DNA from: Apteryx mantelli
Lineage: Eukaryota > Chordata > Aves > Apterygiformes > Apterygidae
Assembly (NCBI RefSeq): GCF_036417845.1
Contig: NC_089990.1
Location: 3,546,001 to 3,610,000, forward strand
Direction of reading: 5' to 3'
Length of the DNA stretch: 64,000 bases
Shown piece after piece: positions 26,364 through 64,000 of this stretch (the stretch's first letter is position 1; each line of letters starts with the position of its first letter). The position numbers and the translations under genes were made by a program. The notes beneath the pieces were generated by a model. The model searched no databases. It was given only the letters and a program-made list of their open reading frames with translations, and was not told the DNA's origin.

Positions 26364-29300
26364 CTAGGATACCTTCATCTTGCCTTTCTCAGGAGCTGCC
26401 TCGTGGACAAGTGGCTGCTCGTCCCCATTCACTGACAGGATCCTCTTTTCCGGCGGCTGCTCCTCAGGCTGGCGGGCAATCAGCAGGCGGCAAGTAAGCA
26501 GGATCCCAAAGACTAGGGCATGGGCATAACGCTTGAGTGGATCCCCCACTAGCTGGTGGAAAAAGAGCACAGCCAGCACGAGGAGGAGGAGGAGAAAGTT
26601 GGCCACGTCCTTGGGGCGACCAGGCACCAGAGTCATGACAATGCCACATGCCACTTCCAGGGCACCGATGCTCTTGCGGAGGAGGATAGAGCTGACTCCC
26701 ATCTTCTTCAGCATGGGAAGGGCCCGCACGTAGCTTTTGTAGGCTCGTTTCTGGAATCAAACAGTAATAGTGTAGAGCACCGTAATGTGAGCAAGTACGT
26801 AGCAAGGGTACCTTCTCCTGAAGTCTGAAGTTACCATCGCTAAAATTAACAATGCAGGACCAGGTTATTGAAAAATACCTCTCTCCAAAAGTAGCGTGCC
26901 CTTTGTAATTAAATAATGCACCTAGTCCCTGCAAAGCCAAAGGACGAAGCAAAAACAGAAGTCCCTTTCCACCTCAAAGCAGCCTAGAATATCCCACTAC
27001 AATCTTAGCATGGGACTGTACATCAAAGTTGAGATTCACCAAGCCTACTCCTCCTCCTCTTACACAGCTTTACAATCTTTTCTTTCCTCTGATAAAAACA
27101 AGCTGACTTTTGCCATCCTCGCTGTCTGGTTTCTGCTGGATTTAGAAGCAGTATAGTTACAAGACAACCTCCTTAAACAGACACCTCGCTCTTACAGGGA
27201 AAAACAACCTCTCTCCCTACATACATTCAAGTTGTTGCATTTGAACGTTAAGTACTGGAGACTTTTTTTTCTTCAGCCAAGTATTTGCTTTTCTTTCTTA
27301 TTTTTTAATGATGCTCCTAATTACTTGCAATGTCTGATATTATTTCCATTCACACTTGAATATACTATTCCTGCAGATATTCCTGCCATTGTGTTCTCTG
27401 CTGCCTAATCAGGAAGAGAGAAATGGAAGCCCTAATCTCAGGTGCACGGCTGTGCAGATCTCACGTGCTAATCAGAGTGTAGATCTGCCTCAGATGTAAT
27501 TGTGGAAACAGGCACTATGGGCACACAAAACTTCCCCACTTCTCTGTAAATTTTGCTGCTTCCTTCTTAGAGAAGCAGATGAAATACTTCACATGCAGTT
27601 AAAAAAAAAATACGCAGCATTCTTGTTACTAAATAACTAAAGATCCCAGGACACTTCTACTCCAAGTGTATGTATTTTAAGAATGCACTTTAAACCTCCA
27701 GTGAGCAAAACCTCTCCTCAAAGCACCAGTTTTTTAACCTGTTGTGAAAAATACAGCTTTATAATGAAACTTATTAGTACCATGCCCTAAAGCACTCTGC
27801 TGTTTTCAATGTTTTAATACACCAACTAATGTGTGTTTTTATTACTGAATGAAATCAACTGCAAGTTTGGTGTTGTAAGTAGGTAAGAGAGGTTCTGTGT
27901 TTTCTTGGGGCAAGAGGTCACGGTTATCGATTAGCAAGATCAGGTTCTCGCTCGCAGTCTCCATTACATTACAGACCACCCCAGTGCGCAGCACAGCAAA
28001 AAGCACAAAAGCCTAAGGAGCCATGAACATGTTACAATACAGGGTATTAAGTATGATGTTGCTGTCTAATATCTGAACACCTCTGCTTTCTCTTTTGTAA
28101 AAATGGGGATAATTCCTACCTGTAGGCCTGATTCTTTTTGGAAAACTAGGAAGGGACCCTCAGAGAAGCAAAGTATCATAGAGAGCAAGGATTTTGCAAT
28201 GCTTCTCAAGTTTCAGTGCTTTTTTCCTTAATTTTTATGCAGCAGCAGCCTAAGAGCTTTATTTTCTGGACATTTTGTCTTCATCTCTTGCTACCCAGTC
28301 ATCTGTTGGTGATTCCTCTTGCTGAGCTCTCTAGGCTGGGGTGCAGGCGAGACGCTGCAATTCAGATGTTATTTGAGAGCTCAGGAGAAGCAGCTGGGCA
28401 GGTGCACAGACAGGAGAGAGCAGAATGTGCTGGAAACTTCCATCGCTGTTTCTTAGGGGCCCCAAAATAATACCAAAACCTTTCAGCCATTGCAATAAAC
28501 GTAACAAAAATGGGGTAAGGAGGGAGCAGGGGAGCAAGCAAATGCAGACAAGGAAGCGAAATGCAGAGGACGGTCCTTCAGCCTGCCTGCAGCTCGCAGC
28601 AGGTAAAGCTCTGCAGCTGGTTTGGCCCTGGGCAGAGAGGAACGAAAACTTGCCAACCGGCTGAAAAATGCACAGAGCGACTTCTCTTTCCTCTTCTCAC
28701 CCCTTTCGCATTTGCAAGGGGAGGAGAGGCTGCAATCTCAGGCTGAAGGGAATAATAATAATAGTGCAACTATTAATAATATCTTCTTCCTCTAGCTAAG
28801 AATCTCAAAGCATTTCATGGTCACAAGTTAATCCCCACACAAGTCCAGTGAGGTAGGGACAGTCTTTGTCATTTTCCTTGCTTTAAAGCACAGATAATTT
28901 TGAGAATGATCATGTGGCTTCCAAAGCAGGCAGGTATCTCCTTTTCCTCCTCCTCTTCTTTTCCAGGGAGTAGGTATCCGCCCTGCCAGGATTGACTGTA
29001 CCTCCCTGCTACGCCCTCCCTCAGATTTTGCTTTACGGAGACCTTCATTTCCCCATGTTTTTGCAGGCATCGGTGTGCCTTCATAGCCCATCCTGCTCGC
29101 CTCCCTCCCTCCTCCCTACCCTGTCCTTATCCACGGGAGGTTTCTCTGTAAATAGGCTCAAACAGAGCCCAAGCCAAGGTTGCCGGGGTATTCTCCGCGC
29201 TGCGTATTATTTGTTTCCCCCTGGGTCCTCCAGATAAAGAGGCGGAGAGGCTTTGGAGAGCCCTCTTCCCTCTCCTTCCCGGCGCTTGGGGCTCCGTCTC

Positions 29301-29516
29301 CGTATCCCCCTGCAGACCTTGCTCCTGCTGCAGGGTTGAGGGGAGAGCGCCCTGCCAGGAGCACGTCTCCCGCACCGCCACCACCGCCGTACTCACCATC
29401 TCGTTGTAGGCATCTCTGCTGAGCCGAGGGGTCAATTTGATGGTCCCCATAAAGACAAAGAAGAGCCCCAGGGCCACCGAGAGGGCGACGATGGTGATGG
29501 TCCTGGGAGATGCCAT
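26364..29516 (-). CDS. TMEM35A: TMEM35A / NACHO, nicotinic receptor assembly chaperone
   Basis: NACHO is an ER membrane protein of the DoxX-like family that promotes assembly of nicotinic acetylcholine receptors, notably alpha7, in neurons. Two coding exons, 29397-29516 (40 codons) and 26364-26750 (128 codons plus stop), join in phase 0 at good GT/AG sites. They give 168 aa (human 167 from memory). Four hydrophobic segments are visible at about residues 7-27, 62-83, 89-108 and 115-131. Near-invariant family blocks such as [29 protein letters not shown] and [16 protein letters not shown] are present. The tail is charged and ends KMKVS. The single intron is about 2.65 kb, with no gene seen in it. 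CENPI lies downstream and TRMT2B upstream, both on the same strand. Confidence 0.96.
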
Positions 29517-40650: not shown

Positions 40651-43501
<2,851 letters not shown>

Positions 43502-43588
43502 TCAGAGAGGCCACGCAGCCCCCCCATGGCCGCAGCCAAAGAAAGAGCCTGGAGCCTGGGAAATAAAGTGCATAAACGGTTCCTTTAC

Positions 43589-43594
43589 TTTAAT
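43589..43594 (-). terminator. F8A (left copy) poly(A) signal ATTAAA
   Basis: ATTAAA on the minus strand lies about 770 bases past the left F8A stop codon. The same hexamer is at the mirrored position in the right arm. Confidence 0.6.
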
Positions 43595-44362
43595 GCAAAG
43601 GGCGGGTCTTTCCCGCAGGCTCCCATGCAACACCACTCCCATCAGCTCGTGCACGCGCCGGCACAGCGGATGAAAGCCGGCCCTTGCTGCACACGCGCAC
43701 CCCACCGCGCTGCCGGGGCACACACTGCTGCTGGCAGGGGCTCCCGAACCGCTCTGGCCACTGCCCCCCACCCAGGGCTACCACGTGCTCCAGAGCCTCC
43801 GCTGAGACGGCTTCGCCCCTGCAACAGGAATGGCCCAAAGCCGAGCAAGGGTCAGAGAACTGGTCCCCACCAAGACTTTTGGCAACAGAAGAAAGGCCGG
43901 GACGGACACAACTGATCGGGGACCGTTGCTCAGGGATCGCTCCTGGCGTCCAAGAAAGGCACCACCAAGGCCGACTTGGCGCTCTGCATCACCGGCAGCG
44001 GAGCAGCCCAGCAGAGGGTGGCTGCAGTGCAAGAGGGTTTCAAGACAAAACGCCCCTTCAGTCACACAGGGAGAAGGATCCCATTTCAGGGAACACACGG
44101 GGAAGCCATGGGGAAGAAGTGCTGCGGTGTCCGTGCCGGGTCAGGACTAGGCCGGCCACAAAAGCCCGCAGGGAGGCTCCCAGCAGCGGCGCCTCTGGAC
44201 AGGGTCTTTGAACGGACAGGGCTCGCTGCACGCAGCGTCTTCGCGCAGCCCACAGAGTCACAGCGGCACGGAGGGAAACGCCGGTGCGGGCCCACGGCAC
44301 CCGGGACGCGCTTCCCCCGCAGCGCCGAGGCGAGGGCGGCGTCGGCGACGGCCGCGTCGTGC

Positions 44363-45378
44363 TCAGAGCCCCTGGCCCGCGGGGCTGGTCATCTCCTGCA
44401 GCACCAGGTGCAGCAGGTGGTTCTGCTCGGGGCTGAGCAGCGGCCACAGCTCGGCCTGCAGCACCTTCAGCGCCTCCAGGTCCTTCTCCTGGCAGGCCAG
44501 CACGGCCGACTGCAGCAGCAGGAAGAGCTCGGCCGGCAGGTAGCCCGCCGCCGCCACCGCCGCGCCGCCGCCGCCCGGCCCGGGCCCCGGCCCGCTCGCC
44601 GGCGCCTCCCAGCAGTACTGCTCCAGCGTCCGCGCGTGCTCGGGCAGCAGCTTGGCCGGCGGCGGCTGCAGCAGCAGCAGCAGCAGCACCCGCGACACCT
44701 CGCAGCGCGCCAGCGCGTCGCGGAAGGCGCCGCCGCCGCCGCCCGCCCGCGCCAGCGCCTGCGCCCGCGTCAGCGCCGCCAGCGCGCCCGCGTAGTCGCC
44801 GCCCAGCAGCAGGCAGGAGGCCAGCTCGCCCAGGCAGCGCAGCGCCGCCAGCGGCAGCCGCGCCGCCGCCAGCAGCTCGGCGGCCCGCTGCAGGGCCGCG
44901 GCGGCGCCCGCCGGGCGGCCCGTGTCGCGCAGCGCCGCCGCCAGCTCCAGGCAGAGCCCGGCCGCCAGCGCCGGCTGCCCCCGCTCCAGGTGCAGGCGGG
45001 CGGCGAAGGCGCCGCAGCTCTGCGCCGCCGCCACGTGCTCGCCGAAGCCGCCGCGCAGCGCCAGGCGCTGCCGCAGGTCGCGCTCCTGGCGCAGGAAGAG
45101 CCGCGCCGCCTCGGCCAGCGCCGCCGCCTCGGCGGGCCCGTGGAAGAGGCTCTGCGCGCAGCGCGCCACGGCCAGCTGGCACCAGGCCGCGTAGGGCAGG
45201 CTCTCCTGGGCGCGCAGCTCCCGCGCCAGCGCCGCGAACTGCTCCGCCGCCTCCGCCACGTTCGGCTTCCGCAGGAACCGCCGCCGCAGCTTGGCCGACA
45301 CCAGCCGGTACCGCGACAGGAAGTCCCCGTCCCCGCCGCCGCCGCCGCCGGGGCCCGGCCCGGGCGCCGCGCCGCCGC

Positions 45379-45409
<31 letters not shown>

Positions 45410-45418
45410 CGCCAGCAT
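44363..45418 (-). CDS. F8A: F8A / HAP40, 40-kDa huntingtin-associated protein (left copy)
   Basis: HAP40 binds huntingtin stably through alpha-helical TPR-like repeats and is linked to endosome dynamics via Rab5. This is a single-exon gene of 351 aa, intronless as in human (about 371 aa). After a Gly/Ala/Pro-rich N-terminus come the family blocks [27 protein letters not shown] (about 31-57), helical Ala/Leu-rich repeats, [29 protein letters not shown], and a C-terminal [24 protein letters not shown]. The start chosen is the first ATG at the head of the poly-Gly tract. It differs from the right copy by eye only in glycine-tract length (8 residues longer). Extreme GC content creates long antisense and shifted open frames, which are not genes. 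Two intact copies suggest both are expressed, but that is inference. Confidence 0.93.
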
Positions 45419-45472
45419 CGCCGCCGCCGCCGCCCGCAACGGACGCCGCGCCGCCAGCCGCCGCCGCCGCGG

Positions 45473-45658
45473 CCAATGGGCGCCGGGTGTCGGAGCACGT
45501 GGGCGGCGCGGGGGGCCAATGGGCGCCGGCTCCCGAGGCACGTGGGCGTCGCGGGAAGCCAATGGGCGCCGGGTGTCCGGGTCACGTGGCCGACGTGGCG
45601 CGGCGTGGCCAATGGGCGCCGAGTGTCCGTAGCACGTGGTCGACGTGGCGGAGCCAAT
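45473..45658 (-). promoter_or_regulatory. left F8A promoter: five CCAAT boxes interleaved with four E-boxes
   Basis: CCAATGGGCGCC-type boxes begin at 45473, 45516, 45559, 45609 and 45654. CACGTG palindromes begin at 45496, 45539, 45583 and 45633, so the two motifs alternate about every 20-26 bases. The unit is about 43-50 bases and is a tandem duplication including the GGGCGCCGG linker. From established knowledge CCAAT is bound by NF-Y and CACGTG by USF, MYC/MAX or MiT/TFE factors. Use in this genome is inferred. Confidence 0.8.
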
Positions 45659-45905
45659 GGGCGCCGGCTGCCGGGGCACGGCGGGAGGCGGCCGGATAGG
45701 GGCGGGAGGGGGCGCGGCCTCCCCTACGCCCCGCCCCAAGGGGGCGTGACCAGGCGAGTGCTGCGAGTCCTCCTCCTAGCAACGGGCCGCCGGGGGGGAC
45801 ACGGGGCTGCGCGTGGCGGCGGCGGCTGCGCTGGGCCCTGCCGGGGTCGGTCCCGGTCCCGGTCCCGGTGCTGATAACAACATAGCGAGAGGTGGGGGTG
45901 GGGGG

Positions 45906-47276
45906 CAGCAGCAGCAGCGGGGAAACGTCAGAGCGACTTTTTAGGGAGCGGTTGTGCTGAGGGGGTCTCGCTCCAGGGGGCCCTGGGGTCACACACCTGC
46001 CGCTGGGGAGGTGCACGAAGGGGCTGCGCTTTTTTTTTAAATTTAACGCACAATGGAATTTCCTTCTTCAATTCCGCTGGATCTGCCTGGGCATGAAGGT
46101 CTGTCCTGGTCACGTCCCATGCTCGGAAGAGAAGGTTTTGGCCTTCTAGAGGCTCAGCAAGGACCCGCTGATCTTATAAGCGGAGCCTCCTTTTAGATGC
46201 CCTCCTCTTCCTCACGTCACTGTATCGGCTCCAGTTTCTCCTCATTCAGTCCTGTGCAAGTGTGGGTTTAAAAACCTCAGTTTTGGGGAGGGGGTGCTTG
46301 GTAGGATGGCGGCTCCAGGCCCCAGCGCAGCCCCGTGTTCCCGGGAGACACGGCACTGGGGCGGCAATGCCGAAGCTCGGCTGCTGTCCCCTAGCGCTTC
46401 GCCAGGGTGTGTGTGTGGGGGAGGAACGTGCCACTTCGGCCTGGGGAGGAAGGAGATCGTCCACCATACTCCCCTTTTGGGAGGCGCCATCGGGAACAGC
46501 GTGAAGGGCAAACGGCCCTGAGGCTGCCGATCGCTTCGCGCCGAGCCGCTTGTCTTGACCGTAAAGGAAACAGGATATGGTACGGGGCACCGGCTTCTCA
46601 GAAGTGAGCATCAGCCCCTTCGACCCTGTGGCTTTCTCTTTCCGTCTGCTTTGCTGCCAGCCCTCCCGCCTCCGCCTCCCCCCGAGACCCGCCACGAGCA
46701 TCACGAGGCCCCGGCTCCTCTCACCGCACTTTTTCCCCCCAGCCAGGGAAACCTGCGCCGGTGCCGCGTGCCCCTCTGCTCCCGGGCGCAGCACGCGGGG
46801 CAGGTGCAGCGCTGGACTGAAGTGAGGATTTACGCTCTCTGTGCTGCTCTGACTTTTCTCTGGCAGGAAGATGTCGAGGGACGCCGCTTTATCAGGTGGA
46901 AACTTGACTGCAAGAGGTTAAGGAGTTTCCCTCAAGCTGCGCAGCGCACGCACGTACTCTGGTGTTGCAATGCTGAGGCTTCTGAACCGCACTCTGACTT
47001 TTGCTAGTGCTGATTGGAAGAGAACAGCCTTGTAACCTTTAATTGCAGCTTTCCACAGGAAGAGCTTGGCTTTCGGCATTTCCCCCCACCCCCATTAAAA
47101 GGAAACGTACCCCTCTCCCTTGCTCTCAGTGTGTTTATTAGCACCAGTGACAGAGGAGAGCGAGTCGTGTCCTCCCCTGAGTTTCAGGTCCTCCTTTGTA
47201 ACAGAGCTAAAGTGAGATTTGGGGTTACTCAGACCTTAACTGGAAAGATCAGAGGATTCAGTCTTTAACAAAACAT
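45906..47276. other. left part of the inverted-repeat spacer, no gene seen
   Basis: The sequence is unique between the left arm and the inferred 3' end of the GPCR gene. Several short plus-strand frames around 46.3-47.0 kb are unrecognised and overlap in multiple frames, as expected for GC-rich noncoding DNA. Confidence 0.5.
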
Positions 47277-47282
47277 TTTATT
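47277..47282 (-). terminator. possible GPCR poly(A) signal AATAAA
   Basis: This minus-strand AATAAA lies 1.26 kb past the receptor stop codon. I did not note a nearer canonical hexamer. The link is tentative. Confidence 0.35.
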
Positions 47283-48543
47283 CTCCCACGTATTCCTCAG
47301 GCGTTTGAATTTTACTAAAACAGTTCACAGTCTGAATGAAAATCCTCCCCAGTCCTAATTGCCCAGGCTTTGCTTGCCTGATGTGTGAATCAGTCTGTTT
47401 CTCCAAGCCTGCAGTCTGCTAAAAATGAGTGAACAGATGAGATGTGAGCATATGAAAGGGAAAAAAAAAATCCAAGCAGGGAAATATCCTATTCTTTGGG
47501 AAGAGGATGGGCAATGAAGAATAATAAAGGCCAAAAACTTCCTTATCCCTTGCAGGCTCCATTTCGAGTCAGTGCGTAATAACAGTGCTTGAGCTGGGGA
47601 CATCAAAGTCAGCATCTCATTCTTGAGGTCCACAGGACTCACACGAGCCTTAGGCGCTTCTGTGGTTCATCCCCTTTGGCCGACGGACCCCTGCCGGAGC
47701 AACGTTCCTGGCACGGCCCAAGCCCGAAACGAGTGCTGTGCAGTGGCCAGGCGAGGAAGCTGCCAGTCCCGTGTGAACACGCCAGTGAAATGGGCAAAGA
47801 AAAACCACTAACGGAAGCCCAGAGTCGCCTGTTTGAATACACAGAAAAGGGAGGCTGACACAGTGTTACAAGGACTGCAGTAAAAACATGAGAAAAAAAG
47901 TGTGCGTTGTCTTAGTTTGGGGTTGCAGGAGTTGTAACGTTTCCTCATGTGCCTGTCTTCCGAGCCCAGCAGTGCACATCTCTGAGCTCCATCATGGAGC
48001 AAAATATTCATCTGCTCCCCGGTAATGCTCTGAAAAGCTTCTCCCTCCCCTTTTCCCAATTCTTCTGCACTTCATCTTCTCCTTTTCCCATTTTGTGCTT
48101 TCTCTGGTGTGGAGGCAATGTGGCACTTAGACAAGATTCACAGCAGATTCCCATTCCTGTTCTTCCCTTCACTCCTCTTCCTCCCATCAAAGCAGCCTTT
48201 CTCTGTCCTGGGCTCTGTCCCTGCTCTTCCCTAGGCTGGGTGGAGGTCCTAGGCCAAGGTTGTTTCTCCTGTGGCACACCCAGCCTTCATTTTTCCTAGG
48301 AAATAATCTCTTCAGCTGTGTGCGTAAAGCTGGTATGGAAGAGTGAGGCCTCAGCTATTCTTTTCCTCTTCATTTACCCCCATGGGTAGCTCTAGCCCTG
48401 ACGGTGCCAGTGGAAGAAACATGAAAAGGTTCCAGTTTCTTCCTCCATCCTCCTGGCAAGTCTCATCTGGTAAATACCAGCAGTCAGAGCAAATCCTTGA
48501 TGAGAACGTCCCATGCCCGAGACCTTGGCACCCACTGGAAGGC

Positions 48544-49560
48544 CTAGGCTTCGGTCACAGATCTGCTGTAGCTCAGCCCTCCCTGGTTCCTCAGGAGAGC
48601 TCTCTTCAGCTTGCCCTGGATGGTGCAGACCACAGCCCTCCGGAAGCTGCTAGACAGGAAAAAGAAGATCACCGGGTCAAGGCAGCTGTTGAGGGCTGAG
48701 ATGCAGAGCACAAGCTCGTTAGCGAGATGGAGACCCTGCTGCCATGGCAGACTAGAAATGACCCCCACTTGCGCGAGGACGTAAGGAATACGGACAACGT
48801 GATAGGGGGTGAAGCATACGATGAAGATGATCAGGACTACGAAGGTCTTGGTGATGGCTTTCATGCTAATCCTCTTGTTCAGCTGCTGAGCATTCATTGA
48901 AGAGACTCTATGGAGCTTGGCAAATATCTTGCTGTAGAAGTAGAGGAAGAGCAGCAGCAGGATAAAGAAAGTGGCTACTGCAACCATGTTAAAGGCTGCT
49001 GCTACAGTGCTTTTGCTCCTGAAGTGGAAGCATTTATGGTCACAGGGTCCTTTTCCTTTTGTCTCAAAAAAGAAAGGTAGCATGAAAGCTGAGTGCACCA
49101 ACCAAACCACCGCAGAGGCCATGGTGCTACAGGACACAGTGTGAATCTTAAACTTTTGGAGGGGCCGGATGATCTTCAGGTAGCGGTCCAGGCTGATCAG
49201 GCTGAGAAACGTGATGCTGACGTACATGTTGAGATAGAAGAAGGCCCCGACAATGTTGCAGAAGATCTGGGGGTCACTCTTGTTTTGATAAGCTATGCGG
49301 AAGGGCAGGCAGAGGGAGAGCAACAGGTCAGACAGAGCCAGGTTCCTCATGTACACGGTGATGGAGGTCTTCCGCTGCATGCTGCATGAGAACACCCAGA
49401 GCGCGAGGGAGTTGCTGAGCAGCCCGATGACGAAGATAAGGGAGTACATCACAGGGAGCGTCACAGACAGGAACCCATCTTGGATCTGACAGTAGGAATT
49501 GCTTCGTCTGTGTTCCGTGACCTCGCTAGCAGGAAAGGGAGTGCTTAAAGAGTCCATCAT
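48544..49560 (-). CDS. class A (P2Y-like, GPR34-related) G-protein-coupled receptor
   Basis: A 338-residue seven-helix receptor encoded in one exon. Landmarks: N50 in TM1 (LLSNSLAL), D78 in TM2 (LALSDLL), a Cys101 to extracellular-loop-2 Cys (C173 or C177) disulfide pair, DRY at 125-127, CFTPYH at 249-254 in TM6 (the delta-branch/P2Y form of CWxP), and DPVIF at 295-299 in TM7. A glycosylation sequon NKS sits at 93-95. The NMYVSITFLSLISLDRYLKI, CFHFRSK and VVLIIFIVCFTPYH blocks recall GPR34 (a lysophosphatidylserine receptor) more than P2RY10 or GPR174, from memory. The ligand is therefore unknown but possibly a lysophospholipid. A splice acceptor ends at 49575, leaving 14 bases of 5' UTR in this exon, so an unseen noncoding exon lies upstream. 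Unusual: Phe replaces the TM7 Tyr at position 299. It lies alone between the F8A arms. Confidence 0.85.
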   Translation of the reverse strand: MMDSLSTPFPASEVTEHRRSNSYCQIQDGFLSVTLPVMYSLIFVIGLLSNSLALWVFSCSMQRKTSITVYMRNLALSDLLLSLCLPFRIAYQNKSDPQIFCNIVGAFFYLNMYVSITFLSLISLDRYLKIIRPLQKFKIHTVSCSTMASAVVWLVHSAFMLPFFFETKGKGPCDHKCFHFRSKSTVAAAFNMVAVATFFILLLLFLYFYSKIFAKLHRVSSMNAQQLNKRISMKAITKTFVVLIIFIVCFTPYHVVRIPYVLAQVGVISSLPWQQGLHLANELVLCISALNSCLDPVIFFFLSSSFRRAVVCTIQGKLKRALLRNQGGLSYSRSVTEA

Positions 49561-49574
49561 CTAGAGCCAAGGAT

Positions 49575-52500
49575 CTGCAAAGAGAAACGCAGAGGGTGTT
49601 AGAATTGACATTTGCACAGACTGGCTCCACACGAGCATCATTCTTTTTATGATACACCTGGGTGGTACCTGGGTGCCCCAAGTCACTACAGACACAACCT
49701 TGCAGTCCCACAAACTTTTATACAAAGGCCACCAGCATGGCTAGTATGCAGAAAACCACCCTGGGGACCTAAAAGCACTAGTCTGTACAGGTTGACACGC
49801 TGGCTTTGGGCCAGGAACTGGCACTGACTTCTCTCCCATGTGGTTCACACCTGTAGGAGAACGTCTACAAAGAATCTGTGTGTTAAGCACCGGAGAGAAA
49901 ATAGGCCCCTGTCCCTCAGCAGGCTGGTCCAGGAGGCAGGCAGCGCTGTCCCGTCCCAGCTGCGGTGACCGACTTTTCTCCTGTCTTCTTTCATGCTGTT
50001 CTGTGCTACCAGCTGTTAAGGAAGGATGTCAGACTAGACTGGTAGGAGTTGTCTGCTGCGTACTAGATAAGCACAGCCCCATCAGTAGCAAAATCTGGAG
50101 TTCCTCAGGAGGGGAAACCACCTTTTGGTTGTACCTGAGCTCTCTGGGTATAGCAAATGAATTCAGGCTCTGTGCAGGGAGAGAATTATGGATATCTTGA
50201 CCTTGTTGAGGGATGATAACCAGATCTATCAGCGCTCCGTACCATCACCTTTGAGGCTGGGAAATCAAGCCCATGCCTGGCTGTTCTTTCATTTCCACTC
50301 TGCTCTTCTCAGACACTTGGGTTCACTGGAGAAGCAGGGCCTCCTTCACCAGGCTCTTCCCTGTCCCCTGCCCGGCTTTCTCCTTTGGGCACATCCCTTC
50401 TCCCGCAGTGATCCCAGGTGCGTGCTCCTCGCGCAATGCAGGATGCAGGATCACCATCACCAGGACAAAGAGGCTCCAGCCAGACCCACCAAGGTGTTCC
50501 CCAGAAGACCAGTACCACTGGGAGGTATCTTGGGGCTAACGTCAGTGTGACTGTATGCACTAGCTGCCACCAACCCTGCTCTCCCCCTTCCCGAGCCTGT
50601 GCTGTGCCGTGGGCCCGGCTGAGCCAGCTCTAAGCTGCCCGGCTCAGTGCACAGCCAGGGCTCTCTGCAAGGCAACCGCAGGAGCCGCCGCGCAGCGCTC
50701 TGCCTGCCGTGGCAAGGCTCTTCCCGCTGCCCCAGCTGGGCGGGTGAAAGCCAGCTCCGCTGCGTTCACGTGGGGCTGGCACGGGCTGAGCACGGAGGAG
50801 GGAGCGCGTACCTCCAATACCGTGCGTGTGCACGAACGCGCCGCGCTCCGCGTGCTCGTCCGTCCACCAGCCCCTCTCCCGTGAAGTGAGAAGGGCTGCG
50901 CGCGCGCCTGTCCCTCCGAGCTCGCCTTTCCCATCTGATCCGATCCCCTCCGGCTCCAGTGGGCTGGTGCCCTCGCCGAGGCTGGCAGCTGGACCGCGCG
51001 GGAGGGTGCGTGGGCAGCGCTGGAGCCACACGGCCTGGCCGTGTCTCGCAGCTCCGAGGAGCTGTGACTCAGGGGCTGGAGGAGGGCACGGCGCAGGCAT
51101 GCGTGCGCTGTGTGCCCGGCTGTGGTTCCAGCCCTGTTCTCAGGAACTTTCCCCACAACCGCTTTTCCATCCGCGGTGCCGCAGGGCTCCGGCGCCCGCA
51201 GGGGCAGGCAGGGTCTGAGCTCTCGCTGCCACGGGGCAAGTCGCCGACGGCCCCGCTGCGGCCGTTGCTGGCACAGCCCGGTCGGGTCGCGCGGGGGGAC
51301 GCCCTGCCCCAGCGCCCACGGCTTCGGCAGCAACCTCCCCGTGAGCACAGCTCCTCCCGGGCACGCGAGTCGCGCTTCCCCTGGCCGGGGGCTGCTGGCC
51401 TGGCTCCTTCCCAGCCCCTCGCCCTTCGCTCCCTCTCCTGCTCTCTGTGATGCCGAGTGACCCGCAGCTGCAGAAACCTCCAACTTCCTTCCACCTGCTG
51501 CAGCTTCTCTAACGCCCTTCTCCCTGCGCGCACGTCCCCGGCACTGGCGGCAGGGCGCCGCTAGCCTCAGGCACACCAGGTGCTCCTGAGTCCCAGTGCT
51601 TTCAAACCACTGTGGATCAAATGCCTCAAACTCACCGCAGGATTTCTGGTTTGCTGCACAGGGGTGTTGCCAGCAGGGACCTTGTGGCCGCCCACCTGGA
51701 TCCCCGGGGCGTCAGTGTGCCACTGCCACGTACCCGCCGCGGCGCCTGCTCCCTGGGGGAGCTCAGACCTCGGCAAGGGTAGGCGCCAACCACCGGGTGT
51801 GCGTGGAGCCGCGCTCGTCATACAAGCGTACGCCGAGCGGCGTGTGTCATCCCGGCGTGTGCCGGTGCGGATGCCGTGTGAGGGGCTGCGTGGCAGCGTG
51901 ACCACTGCACGCAGCTGGGAGGCTGTGCACCGATGCACGCGCTTCGTGCGCACCTGCACGGCCGCGGCACGCCAGGAGCCAACCGGCGGACACGCTCTCC
52001 TGGCGAGTCCGGCTGTGCCCGAGCGCGGCTGTGTGCGCAGTGCCCCTGCGCGGTGGCAGATGTGCCTGCCCGTCCCTGCCTCCTTCTCCCTGCCCAGCCC
52101 CAGCCCGTGCTTTTCGCACACCTGCAGCTCCTGCGTGACTGCTAGCTGGCTGCAAGAGCCCCCCGAGCCCTCTTCCCCCCACGCTTGCACAGATGACGAA
52201 CGCTTCCCAGTGACTCATAGCGAGAAGAAAAGCCACCCGGAGTCACCTACCTCAGCACCTCTGCTCTGCTCCTTCGCCTGCCGTAATAGAGGTTCCTGCT
52301 CTTGCCGGGGCCCCTATAAGCCGGTGGCTGGTGACGACGACGTGTGTCCTCACCGGTCTCCGTGCTCCTCCCACGCGGGGCTTGTTTGTTTTTTCCCTTC
52401 CCGGCAAGGCAAGTGCACCTTGCAGGGGCACATCCTGGCGCAGGTTTGGCAGCGCTCCCAGGCACACCTGCGGTGGCGGCAGCGCGGAGAGGAGACCGGG

Positions 52501-55500
52501 AGCAGGCTTCGCACGCTGGCTGCGGGACGGCTGGAAACGCTGCGCGTGGCTTTGCCCGGGCGGCTCCTTTCGAAGGCACCGCAGGCTGCAGCACAGCTCT
52601 CCCTAGCTCGGCTCCTTCGCTCCAGAACGGCTTGGCTCCCAGCCGGAGCCGGCATCCGGGAAAGGGTCCCGCGCCGCAGCACGCCCAGCACCCGCCGCCC
52701 TCGCGAGCCGCGGGGACGCCTGGCACCCGGGGAGCGCTCAGCCCGCAGGGAGATGGGCCTGGTGGTATCCCACCAGATGCAGCCGCCCCACCGCTGCGTG
52801 CCTGGATTTACGCTGCAAGGAGGAGGGCAGTTACCCCCAGTTTTTGTCCTGTCCTGCGGAGTGGGAAGCAATGGAGAATGCAACAGAATCTCCTTGAAAT
52901 TGCAGCTTTTCCCAGAGATCCCTGGCCTGCCCCCACGCTGGCCCAACAGAGCCGGCGTCAGCCCTGCTCAAAGCGCATCCCCGGCGCCGTCTGCCCCGAG
53001 CCTGTTGGCCAAAAGCTGCCAGGGGACATGTCAAGTCAGAGGGGACACGTGGGGTGGCCCCGAGCCCTCATCCCAGACACCGAAAGGACGAAAGCCCCAA
53101 GAATGGAGCAGATTGTTCTGCGGAGAGTTTCCATGTTACCGGATTTAGCTCGCAAAGCACCGTGACGTTCGCCCACGCAGATGCAAATTGCCGCGGTGGG
53201 CAGGGGAGGAATGCAAAGGTGATGGCAGTGGAAAGGAGAAATTATTTCGTAAACCGTTCTCCTCCACTGGCCGCAGCAGCCGGATCCAGCAAACGGAGCG
53301 GTACGGACCGCTTGGCCCGAGACGGGGCAGCGCCCTCAGCGCTGCCAGCTCTGCTCCACAACCCGGGAAACGGCGGCCCCGGGAGCTGAGGTCGCTGAGC
53401 AAAGCCGGGGCAGAGCCGCGGAGGGCTCACGGTCGTGGGCACTGCCGCGGTGGGGCAGGGCACGGAGCGGGCTGGCGTCCCCTCCTGCCTCCCGGGAGCC
53501 CTTCGCGGTCTGGCGCCTCCAGAGCTCTCGGCACGAGAAAACCCTCACGCGGCCGAAGCGCCGGCTGGGGCTGCGGGTCCCGTGGGCGAGCTGGGACCCC
53601 CCGGCTGGGCTCCAGGACGCTCCGGGACGGCGCGTGCCGTCCTCCTCCCGCTGAGCCCTTGGCACCTCACCCGAGCGCCTCCCAGCCCCATCTCCCTGCC
53701 CTTCGCGCGCCCCTCGCCTCTGCCCTCTGCAGCCTGCCGGGGGGCCGCCGTCACCCGTCCCCTGTGGCTTGTGCCACCCCTCAGCCCCCTCTGCCCTTGG
53801 CGGGCGTCGCATCCCCTGCGGGACATTGGCGGCTCTTACCCTGAGCGCTCAGCTTCCCCTCCTAAGCACCAGCCGTGGCAAAGGCAGAGCAAAAAGTTAA
53901 ATAAAGCGGAGATTAGGCAGCGCAGAGAGGAGCACTCCAAGCGATTTAGCCCTTCAGGGCCAAAGCCGGGGCTTGGGCAGGGCGCTCAGCACAGAAAAGT
54001 GTGGCAGAGCTACGTTAGGGTTGGTCCACATGGGTTTCTCCCGGCACAGGAGCTTCCTGCGTGCCAGGATGGGACCCCAGAGGGTCCCGTCACCCGCGAT
54101 GGGGGTGCCTCCGCTGCTCGTGAGATGTGCACGCAGCTTGGGATGCGAACATTGAGAAATCAGAATTAAGCTGCCCTGAAAAATAAGGTATCTCTGATCT
54201 ACCCCTCCTGCCTCCCACTGTGCAGCCTCCCCTGCGAGAGGCTTTTGATCCCGTTATTTTTAGAACAGCTCAAAAGCAGGTCAAGCGACCGTTTGTGCGG
54301 GGCGCAGAGAGAACCGTACTCGTACTTATCTGTACGTTTGCCGCTTGGAGGGGACTTGCGCAGGAAGCCCGCGAGCGCTGCCGTGTCGGCGGTGCAGGCT
54401 GCCTCCCCCCCGCGAGCCCTCCCAGGCCCTGTCCCACGTCCCACGCGGGGGACGGCTTCCTTGGGGGGACGACGCCCCGGGCCCGTCCAGCGAGGGCTGG
54501 GGTGTCCCCTGCGTGGGTGCCCCCTTTCCCACTCAGCTTGCCGGGGCTGGACTGGGCTCCTCAGCACCCTGCGGCCCCGACACCGTCCCCTGGCCCGGGA
54601 CCTGCCAGGGGAGGCATCACACAGTGCTGCTCCCTGCTACCGTGAGAAAACACAGTTACGCTGGAAAGCACGGACAAGAAATGAGTAAGGGAGAGTGGTT
54701 TGTTCCAGCTCTGGAAATCCCAAAGCCTGGACAGTGGAAATCATGGGCTGCCAAACTTCGTTTCTCCGTCTGGTCCTGGTGTCTTGTGCTGCATCAGCTT
54801 CACCTCCAGATCCTGCTGAGTAATTACGTTAGAAAAGTCTAACCAGAGCCGCCAACCAGCAAGTACAGAAATAACTGCAACCTGAGACTGGCGTGGAAGT
54901 TCGAAAGTGCATTTCCACAATATCAGCTAGCTGGTGTCAGCCACTTTTAAACGTACACATAGGTATATTTATACACACACACACTCACACATGCATAAAA
55001 CACACACAAGCAGTTTTGTTCCTCGCAGTTCTTGCCCGGCCCTTCTGGAGGGACCTGGCTTTGGAAAGAGCCTAAGAAGGCGCCCGCTGGGAGGGAACTC
55101 TTGGTTGCTGTTTTCGCCTGTGGTAGCCACGAGAGCCCAAAGAGAGAAGTGAGGCAAGGTTTGCGGGGCCGGGACATCCTCTTTCAGACCAGCTGATAGA
55201 GCCGGGACCGCGGCAGCTGGGCTGCGCCTGCGAGTCCTCTTGTGGGGCTGGAACAGCAGCCGCAAGGTTTCAGCTCAGGCAAGGCCGGGACGTTGGCTTG
55301 GAGCAGGCCATAGGTTTGGTCGGCTCGAGAGAAAAAGGTGTTCAGCAGAGCAGAGGGGTCGTTGGTGGTGGGAGAAGCAACACGGTCTTTAGTCCCGAGG
55401 GACAGATATTTGCGGCCGTGATTAGAGCGAGCGCGCCGCGCAGCTTCCGCTCGCAGTCCGTCTCGCAGCACGGCGAGGCGCCGCCGGGTTTGCGGTCCCT

Positions 55501-55836
55501 GCGCCTGCTGCGAGCCGGCGCTTGCAGGAGGAGGCCGAACATTGTCGAGCCGCAGCGACATCGTTAGCTCGGGGGATTTTTTGTCGAGAGTCACAAAGCG
55601 ATGAGTTACGCTGCCCCTCACCTTGCAGTTCCCCTCGCCAGCTCTGCGGTACAATCGCGAGCTAGGAGAACAGGTCAGGGCGGGTTTTTCTTATAGCTGC
55701 AGAGTGTTTGTTACGTGAACCGAACTCGGAGCCCGGCTGTGAAGCACCTGCACGGCGCCGGGAGGCCTCGACACCCGCGCGCCCGAGGAAAGCGAGGGCT
55801 GCTCCCCGCTCGCTCCGGAGGGGGAAGCGGGCGCCC
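49575..55836. other. right part of the inverted-repeat spacer, GC-rich, no supported gene
   Basis: From about 50.4 to 54.7 kb the DNA is very GC- and CpG-rich. Long open frames occur on both strands, the longest at 51580-53148 plus (522 codons). None resembles a known protein and they overlap each other in several frames, so I treat them as noncoding. The region should hold the noncoding first exon of the receptor gene. A 55184-55654 minus frame (156 codons) is likewise unrecognised. Confidence 0.5.
54971..55008. repeat. (AC)n microsatellite
   Basis: This is an interrupted AC dinucleotide run with a TCAC and an ATGCATAAA interruption. Confidence 0.75.
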
Positions 55837-56092
55837 CCCCCCACCCCCACCTCTCGCTATGTTGTTATCAGCACCGGGACCGGGACCACAACCGGGACCG
55901 ACCCCGGCAGGGCCCAGCGCAGCCGCCGCCGCCGCCACGCGCAGCCCCGTGTCCCCCCCGGCGACCCGTTGCTAGGAGGAGGACTCGCAGCACTCGCCTG
56001 GTCACGCCCCCTTGGGGCGGGGCGTAGGGGAGGCCGCGCCCCGTCCCGCCCCTATCCGGCCGCCTCCCGCCGTGCCCCGGCAGCCGGCGCCC

Positions 56093-56278
56093 ATTGGCTC
56101 CGCCACGTCGACCACGTGCTACGGACACTCGGCGCCCATTGGCCACGCCGCGCCACGTCGGCCACGTGACCCGGACACCCGGCGCCCATTGGCCTCCCGC
56201 GACGCCCACGTGCCTCGGGAGCCGGCGCCCATTGGCCCCCCGCGACGCCCACGTGCTCCGGCACCCGGCGCCCATTGG
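56093..56278 (+). promoter_or_regulatory. right F8A promoter: five inverted CCAAT boxes interleaved with four E-boxes
   Basis: ATTGG boxes begin at 56093, 56138, 56188, 56231 and 56274. CACGTG palindromes begin at 56113, 56163, 56207 and 56250, in strict alternation. The last ATTGG lies about 50 bases before the start codon, so the array is core promoter or 5' UTR. The copy differs from the left array by only a few bases. The box at 56163 reads CCACGTGACC, close to the MiT/TFE (CLEAR) consensus; this is a motif match only. Confidence 0.8.
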
Positions 56279-56329
56279 CCGCGGCGGCGGCTGGCGGCGC
56301 GGCGTCCGTTGCGGGCGGCGGCGGCGGCG

Positions 56330-57361
56330 ATGCTGGCGGCGGCGGGCGGCGGCGGCGGCGCGGCGCCCGGGCCGGGCCCCGGCGGCGGCGGGGACGGGGA
56401 CTTCCTGTCGCGGTACCGGCTGGTGTCGGCCAAGCTGCGGCGGCGGTTCCTGCGGAAGCCGAACGTGGCGGAGGCGGCGGAGCAGTTCGCGGCGCTGGCG
56501 CGGGAGCTGCGCGCCCAGGAGAGCCTGCCCTACGCGGCCTGGTGCCAGCTGGCCGTGGCGCGCTGCGCGCAGAGCCTCTTCCACGGGCCCGCCGAGGCGG
56601 CGGCGCTGGCCGAGGCGGCGCGGCTCTTCCTGCGCCAGGAGCGCGACCTGCGGCAGCGCCTGGCGCTGCGCGGCGGCTTCGGCGAGCACGTGGCGGCGGC
56701 GCAGAGCTGCGGCGCCTTCGCCGCCCGCCTGCACCTGGAGCGGGGGCAGCCGGCGCTGGCGGCCGGGCTCTGCCTGGAGCTGGCGGCGGCGCTGCGCGAC
56801 ACGGGCCGCCCGGCGGGCGCCGCCGCGGCCCTGCAGCGGGCCGCCGAGCTGCTGGCGGCGGCGCGGCTGCCGCTGGCGGCGCTGCGCTGCCTGGGCGAGC
56901 TGGCCTCCTGCCTGCTGCTGGGCGGCGACTACGCGGGCGCGCTGGCGGCGCTGACGCGGGCGCAGGCGCTGGCGCGGGCGGGCGGCGGCGGCGGCGCCTT
57001 CCGCGACGCGCTGGCGCGCTGCGAGGTGTCGCGGGTGCTGCTGCTGCTGCTGCTGCAGCCGCCGCCGGCCAAGCTGCTGCCCGAGCACGCGCGGACGCTG
57101 GAGCAGTACTGCTGGGAGGCGCCGGCGAGCGGGCCGGGGCCCGGGCCGGGCGGCGGCGGCGCGGCGGTGGCGGCGGCGGGCTACCTGCCGGCCGAGCTCT
57201 TCCTGCTGCTGCAGTCGGCCGTGCTGGCCTGCCAGGAGAAGGACCTGGAGGCGCTGAAGGTGCTGCAGGCCGAGCTGTGGCCGCTGCTCAGCCCCGAGCA
57301 GAACCACCTGCTGCACCTGGTGCTGCAGGAGATGACCAGCCCCGCGGGCCAGGGGCTCTGA
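56330..57361 (+). CDS. F8A: F8A / HAP40, 40-kDa huntingtin-associated protein (right copy)
   Basis: Single-exon gene of 343 aa. From [10 protein letters not shown] to the terminal SPAGQGL it reads identically to the left copy. The only difference I see is a shorter Gly tract and Gly-Ala segment near the N-terminus, from GGC-repeat contraction. The function is as huntingtin's constitutive helical partner. The stop is TGA at 57359-57361, followed by about 730 bases to an ATTAAA at 58092-58097. The next gene on the same strand is DKC1, with its start codon only about 255 bases past that signal. Transcription points away from the spacer and toward DKC1. Which copy is ancestral cannot be told from the sequence alone, although adjacency to the complete DKC1 favours this one. 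Confidence 0.94.
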
Positions 57362-58091
57362 GCACGACGCGGCCGTCGCCGACGCCGCCCTCGCCTCGGC
57401 GCTGCGGGGGAAGCGCGTCCCGGGTGCCGTGGGCCCGCACCGGCGTTTCCCTCCGTGCCGCTGTGACTCTGTGGGCTGCGCGAAGACGCTGCGTGCAGCG
57501 AGCCCTGTCCGTTCAAAGACCCTGTCCAGAGGCGCCGCTGCTGGGAGCCTCCCTGCGGGCTTTTGTGGCCGGCCTAGTCCTGACCCGGCACGGACACCGC
57601 AGCACTTCTTCCCCACGGCTTCCCCGTGTGTTCCCTGAAATGGGATCCTTCTCCCTGTGTGACTGAAGGGGCGTTTTGTCTTGAAACCCTCTTGCACTGC
57701 AGCAACCCTCTGCTGGGCTGTTCCGCTGCTGGTGATGCAGAGCGCCAAGTTGGCCTCGGTGGTGCCTTTCCTGGATGCCAGGAGCGATCCCTGAGCAACG
57801 GTCCCCGATCAGTTGTGTCCGTCCCGGCCTTTCTTCTGTTGCCAAAAGTCTTGATGGGGACCAGTTCTCTGACCCTTGCTCGGCTTTGGGCTGTTCCTGT
57901 TGCAGGGGCGAAGCTGTCTCAGCGGAGGCTCCGGAGCGCACGGTAGCCCTGGGTGGGGGGCAGTGGCCAGAGTGGTTCGGGAGCCCCTGCCAGCAGCGTG
58001 TCCGGCGAGGGCCGGCTTTCATCCGCCATGCCAGCGTGGGCCGATGGGAGCAGTGTTGCGTGGGAGCCTGCGGGAAAGACCCGCCCTTTGC

Positions 58092-58097
58092 ATTAAA
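58092..58097 (+). terminator. F8A (right copy) poly(A) signal ATTAAA
   Basis: ATTAAA about 730 bases past the stop codon, mirrored by 43589-43594 in the left arm. Cleavage shortly after it would place the transcript end close to the arm boundary. Confidence 0.6.
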
Positions 58098-58159
58098 GTA
58101 AAGGAACTGTTTATGCACTTTATTTCCCAGGCTCCAGGCTCTTTCTTTGGCTGCGGCGA

Positions 58160-58352: not shown

Positions 58353-64000
<5,648 letters not shown>

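Follow-up and report, generated by a model that had tools for sequence, protein, structure and literature searches.

In a stretch of 64,000 nucleotides from the kiwi Apteryx mantelli (NC_089990.1, positions 3,546,001 to 3,610,000, hereafter the window), the gene F8A, which encodes HAP40, a partner protein of huntingtin, is present as two intact copies in opposite orientation that form an inverted repeat, and the divergence between the two arms of this repeat is sharply uneven, with a central core that lacks any substitution. From this pattern we consider gene conversion between the arms likely, in which case the core would be a tract of at least 1.35 kilobases (kb) that was converted recently. 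The uneven divergence, the position of the right copy at what appears to be the ancestral site of the gene, and a stray inverted exon of DKC1 next to the left copy all go beyond an initial annotation of this DNA, which had described the inverted duplication as such.

The inverted F8A repeat and the divergence of its arms

A repeat finder listed seven inverted pairs within 40000-62000, the top ones being 43727-45382/56342-57997 (98%), 45391-45829/55922-56360 (94%) and 43520-43646/58040-58166 (94%). Aligned end to end, 43529-45905 and the reverse complement of 55837-58157 give 2386 columns with 35 substitutions and 74 gap columns in seven indels, and BLASTN of slightly wider arm stretches returned a single alignment of 2400 columns (95.3% identity, E = 0.0). 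The arms are inverted copies of about 2.38 and 2.32 kb, as initially annotated, and the spacer, previously given as about 9.9 kb, measures 9931 base pairs (bp). Outside the arms, flanks and spacer were not accepted as homologous, since the matches found between them were weak (68% over 73 bp and 63% over 128 bp), which leaves two inverted arms with a unique spacer and unique flanks. The inverted F8A structure is very probably real, and its parts are the following (UTR, untranslated region; ORF, open reading frame):

43529..45905, minus strand: left arm with an F8A copy, its upstream region and 3' end; putative derived copy (repeat finder, alignment, motifs)
45906..55836, no strand: spacer of 9931 bp, unique apart from the weak 73-bp match to the flanks (68%)
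55837..58157, plus strand: right arm with an F8A copy at the putative ancestral site between GPR34 and DKC1 (repeat finder, alignment, neighbours)
44109..45489, no strand: core of the left arm without substitution relative to the right arm (0/1354 aligned sites), putative gene-conversion tract, partner 56262-57615 (alignment)
44363..45418, minus strand: left F8A/HAP40 coding sequence, 351 amino acids, intact, single-exon (ORF list, protein comparison)
56330..57361, plus strand: right F8A/HAP40 coding sequence, 343 amino acids, intact, single-exon (ORF list, structure-database match)
45471..45680, minus strand: left upstream array, 43-bp tandem repeat in 4.7 copies with CCAAT and CACGTG (repeat and motif scan)
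56071..56280, plus strand: right upstream array, 43-bp tandem repeat in 4.7 copies with CCAAT and CACGTG (repeat and motif scan)

The 35 substitutions fall into zones of very different density, with 30/542 in the outer 3' flank (43529-44108), 0/1354 in the core (44109-45489) and 5/416 in the promoter (45490-45905). Segments fixed by annotation give the same picture, i.e. 0/1029 in the coding sequence, 0/257 in the proximal 3' UTR, 0/49 in the 5' UTR and 5/435 in the promoter. The longest substitution-free run spans 1381 bp (1354 aligned sites); when 35 substitutions were placed randomly in 2312 sites, the longest run never exceeded 856 in 200,000 trials (median 254). Within the core only GGC-rich tracts differ, and only in length. 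The contrast between the coding sequence and the outer flank is highly significant (p = 8e-15). Selection at the protein level was rejected as the cause of the core identity, since the 343 aligned codons agree at silent positions too and the 257 bp of the proximal 3' UTR are identical as well.

A recent duplication without gene conversion, i.e. young arms whose outer 3' flank mutates faster through CpG decay, would be compatible with the nature of the flank substitutions, 18 of 30 of which are located at CpG sites and 28 of 30 of which are transitions, and with the stray DKC1 exon described below, which still encodes 40/40 residues of kiwi DKC1. However, at non-CpG sites the outer flank still differs from the core (12/467 versus 0/917, p = 2e-6), and the promoter, which shares its GC-rich island with the core, carries 5/416 substitutions versus 0/1354 (p = 7e-4), a difference that persists at non-CpG sites (4/296 versus 0/917, p = 0.0035) and in the comparison of promoter and coding sequence (5/435 versus 0/1029, p = 0.002). 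CpG decay alone was rejected on these grounds, and a lower mutation rate in an unmethylated island fails for the same two reasons, the shared island and the non-CpG sites, so that we regard young arms without conversion as rather unlikely. The zone tests, together with the 343 codons and the 257 bp of proximal 3' UTR without substitution, point to a homogenisation beyond what selection or mutation bias would produce. Some considerations weigh against conversion: the core boundaries were set at observed substitutions, which favours low p values (the tests based on the coding sequence are free of this), more than half of the flank differences are those at CpG sites, and the argument rests on heterogeneity within the window DNA and not on a tree that includes outgroup DNA. 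The direction of strong/weak differences is balanced (15 versus 14 in the outer flank, 2 versus 2 in the promoter), which, with no outgroup, is uninformative on GC-biased conversion.

Both F8A genes are complete single-exon ORFs, in agreement with the initial annotation, and homologous to HAP40 over their length. The plus-strand protein matches two distinct solved human HAP40 sequences (PDB 6x9o and 6ez8, E 1.7e-116 and 1.9e-116), and left and right proteins are identical in 343/343 aligned residues, the only difference being the length of an N-terminal Gly/Ala-rich tract. A weak SNAP match in both proteins (E about 8e-4, below Pfam's cut-off) agrees with the homology of HAP40 and SNAP that is stated in PMC7725122. 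Among the best 120 of 373 matches, the best HAP40 entries are those of emu (92%) and ostrich (94% local identity), over 93% of the query; since the left kiwi copy differs from emu at 16/344 aligned residues, the HAP40 protein itself is not frozen. Upstream of F8A each arm carries five CCAAT motifs in reverse orientation and four CACGTG motifs in a CpG-rich region, and an ATTAAA signal lies within each arm at 65 bp from its outer edge (43594, minus strand; 58092, plus strand). From these motifs we infer a promoter and a 3' UTR in each arm, as had been proposed. The third-codon-position GC content of both genes is extreme (99.7%) and may reflect GC-biased conversion.

Neighbouring genes and the putative ancestral site of F8A

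The order across the window is TMEM35A (minus), stray DKC1 exon (minus), left F8A arm (minus), GPR34 (minus), right F8A arm (plus) and DKC1 (plus), with the following features outside the arms:

43211..43329, minus strand: stray DKC1 exon, human residues A346-K385, intact AG acceptor and GT donor (tblastn of human DKC1, splice sites read)
48544..49560, minus strand: GPR34 coding sequence in the spacer, 338 amino acids, intact (ORF list, protein comparison)
58353..64000, plus strand: DKC1 exons 1-10, exon 10 cut by the window end, GT/AG splice sites (search with human DKC1, splice sites read)
26367-29516, minus strand: TMEM35A, two coding exons (sequence search)

GPR34 is the sole gene found in the spacer; the best solved relatives of its protein are GPR34 structures, and the best GPR34 entry among the matches listed is that of ostrich (94%). 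Neither the HAP40 nor the GPR34 matches listed include an Apteryx entry. The joined DKC1 fragment of the right flank is identical to Apteryx mantelli DKC1 in 318/318 residues, while the next entries among the matches listed reach at most 97% at a query coverage of at least 98%, and up to 99% on shorter stretches; these entries are representatives of 90% clusters, and emu or rhea DKC1 may sit inside a cluster. With this identity, and with the closest HAP40 and GPR34 entries listed being avian, the host is a bird, which the initial annotation had only assumed.

The linkage of the three genes was followed by comparing by hand the longest contig per entry across the listings of the best 120 F8A, GPR34 and DKC1 entries, with equal contig size taken as the same contig. 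Among the matches listed, F8A and GPR34 had contigs of equal size in 15/15 species with both (ostrich, harpy eagle, Eudromia, cuckoo, alligator, Pelodiscus, Pogona, platypus, Elgaria, Hemicordylus, Sphaerodactylus, Sceloporus, Eublepharis, Candoia and Liasis), F8A and DKC1 in 8/8 (Heliornis, alligator, Candoia, Elgaria, Hemicordylus, Anolis sagrei, Otolemur and Enhydra) and GPR34 and DKC1 in 19/21. F8A and DKC1 would be close in Heliornis and Otolemur, since the shared contigs measure just 379 kb and 1.36 megabases, and in two fishes GPR34 and DKC1 carry almost consecutive locus tags (Albula, AGOR_G00028830/AGOR_G00028800; Gymnothorax, GJAV_G00136110/GJAV_G00136090). An origin of the single-exon F8A by retroposition is proposed in PMC7725122, and the kiwi locus suggests where the amniote retrogene landed, which seems to be between GPR34 and DKC1. 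As the right arm lies at this site, the right copy is very probably the original and the left arm its copy. On the other side of the balance, equal size only implies the same contig and the same contig is not adjacency, and contig sizes of GPR34 and DKC1 are unequal in the two remaining species, the amphibians Hymenochirus and Pleurodeles.

The stray DKC1 exon, which we take to be exon 11 by human numbering, lies 199 bp beyond the left F8A arm, and its order and orientation relative to F8A are as on the right, with exons 1-10 absent in between. An intact inverted DKC1 exon just outside the left arm makes the left copy look like the remnant of a larger inverted F8A-DKC1 duplication. The exon encodes 40/40 residues of kiwi DKC1 P0241; this identity is by itself no proof of young age, because the same 40 residues occur in 33 of the best 120 entries listed, from other vertebrates and kiwi. 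A tblastn search with human DKC1 gave no convincing match beyond residue 388 anywhere in the window, with only low-complexity ones. That an inversion broke DKC1 in two was rejected, given this result and a complete kiwi DKC1 P0241 of 515 amino acids. A left F8A transcript reading through past the ATTAAA would reach the intact acceptor and the stray exon (43211-43594, minus strand), so that a chimaeric F8A-DKC1 exon transcript from the left copy is possible.

Probable history and age of the duplication

Starting from the observed two intact copies, uneven divergence and stray exon, we propose a history whose order of events, conversion as cause, expression and age are deduced and which, as a whole, we regard as probable. 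A stretch extending from the F8A promoter to DKC1 exon 11 or further would have been duplicated in the kiwi lineage, with the inverted copy coming to lie beyond GPR34. Exons 1-10 of DKC1 would then have dropped out of this copy, so that a complete additional F8A and a single stray DKC1 exon remained. Between the arms of about 2.3 kb, 10 kb apart, gene conversion focused on the body of the gene would subsequently have transferred sequence, which kept coding sequence and proximal UTR identical, whereas the outer 3' flank, rarely or never converted, drifted to 5.5%. Two promoters with the same upstream array would make the same HAP40 protein, and with two sources of one protein the likely effect is a change in dosage and no new function.

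For dating we used age = divergence / (2 x rate) with the mutation rate that PMC9550048 gives for kiwi (8.0e-10 per site and year), which is a genome-wide rate not meant for CpG-rich DNA. The duplication then dates to about 16 million years from 2.6% at non-CpG outer-flank sites and to about 35 million years from 5.5% at all sites, both minimum ages if the outer flank was also once converted. Since the split of kiwi and elephant birds is placed at about 50 million years ago in the same source, the duplication probably occurred on the kiwi stem. For the last conversion, 0/1354 gives an approximate 95% upper bound of 1.4 million years, or 2 million years on non-CpG sites alone. The initial annotation had offered an independent palindrome or an old structure kept by conversion as alternatives, and the locus seems to be both, with a flank of 16-35 million years and a core homogenised within about 1-2 million years; taken as a whole, that annotation is partly supported. 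What argues for caution is that the duplication may be younger than the flank implies, as the promoter differs by just 1.2% and the flank is rich in CpG differences, and that the stray exon could be an independent event, its identity to kiwi DKC1 also fitting a younger age.

As to the path by which the left copy arose, one inverted duplication reaching the stray exon followed by one deletion in the copy is the simplest course, and we favour it to a moderate degree. A complex replication event with template switching, similar to microhomology-mediated break-induced replication, could instead have copied F8A and the DKC1 exon as separate fragments within a single event, so that no deletion was needed afterwards; the arm ends are abrupt, the inner edge lies at the G-rich tract GGTGGGGGTGGGGGG, and the order and orientation of the copied fragments are preserved, which is compatible with skipping and with deletion alike. 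Clear microhomology at the junctions was, however, not found by eye, and the two courses are indistinguishable without relatives, so that we hold template switching to be the less credible and somewhat unlikely course. An assembly artefact, i.e. a haplotype or chimaera joined in inverted orientation, might be suspected from a stray DKC1 exon near F8A that is odd enough to resemble a chimaera, which counts against a genuine structure; but the arms differ at 35 sites and in seven indels, 30 of the 35 substitutions are crowded into 580 bp at one end, which does not resemble variation between alleles, flanks and spacer have no strong match to each other, and F8A duplicates are recurrent in mammals, all of which makes an artefact very improbable. 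Many bird entries are named 'HAP40-like', a possible hint of a second copy and thus of an old inverted pair from the bird ancestor that was lost in chicken and zebra finch; the suffix is probably a naming effect of the three identical human genes, and we rejected it as evidence. An old bird pair is also at odds with the single F8A reported for chicken and zebra finch in PMC7725122, and the 2.6% at non-CpG flank sites is low for such an age unless the flank was converted as well. We therefore consider it very unlikely compared with a duplication in the kiwi lineage.

Other F8A duplications and possible consequences

Among the recurrent inversions behind human disease, one of the best known is mediated by F8A copies, as recombination between the inverted human copies causes a common form of haemophilia. 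According to PMC3211038, the human int22h copies are 9.5 kb long, 99.9% alike and located in and near F8 on the X chromosome, with int22h-2 and int22h-3 in 50-kb arms around a 67-kb spacer that is itself thought to flip; conversion and inversion between the human F8A copies are reported in PMC7725122 and PMC3211038. The kiwi pair resembles int22h-1, -2 and -3 (F8A1, F8A2 and F8A3) in that the same gene is multi-copy, with identical proteins and inverted pairs, but the kiwi unit of 2.3 kb surrounds GPR34 beside DKC1, whereas the human unit of 9.5 kb lies in or near F8, with one copy inside it; F8 was not searched for in the window. As unit and breakpoints differ, a separate origin of the kiwi and human pairs is likely, which supports the independence from the mammalian duplication suggested initially. 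By analogy, the kiwi pair likely works like int22h and yet is a separate structure.

According to PMC7725122, chicken (on chromosome 4) and zebra finch have a single F8A, several mammals have two or three, and a second copy is present in pig, cattle and horse; from the location in chicken, the kiwi site should be autosomal. Among the matches listed, HAP40 is represented by two distinct entries on contigs of equal size in each of owl monkey, dugong and beaver, and by two on contigs of unequal size in dog. In terms of the presence of copies, to which this comparison is limited, kiwi thus shares the recurrent gain of a second F8A with mammals. We conclude that F8A duplicates repeatedly and that the stray exon and the core-only homogenisation are the kiwi's own features. 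Primate X-chromosome palindromes, as described in PMC8981503, likewise have inverted arms that are GC-rich and highly similar, a similarity put down to gene conversion; in contrast, they are large and sex-chromosomal with an arm identity above 99%, while the kiwi arms are short, identical in the core alone and, presumably, autosomal. Among the open-licence PMC titles surveyed, no report of F8A copies in kiwi or of an inverted F8A pair in birds was found.

The arms could recombine to flip the 10-kb spacer, which might cost little, because GPR34 would turn round without breaking any gene found. More speculatively, and we think this improbable as a whole, amniotes may repeatedly duplicate F8A in inverted orientation because an extra HAP40 dose or mutual repair by conversion is favoured, with the kiwi pair conserved across species and the GPR34 spacer flipping in populations. 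If so, kiwi would provide an autosomal parallel in nature to the inversion hotspot at human F8. An inverted F8A pair in a non-mammal, separate from the human one in unit and neighbours, would permit a direct test of the gene's proneness to inverted duplication, and also of whether additional HAP40 is advantageous and to what extent short arms on autosomes become homogenised.

An Rfam scan of the window returned three matches at the gathering score, all within the right-hand DKC1, where SNORD17 (61247-61494), SNORD83 (62055-62130) and SNORA36 (62528-62662), each on the plus strand and above the gathering score, lie in introns.

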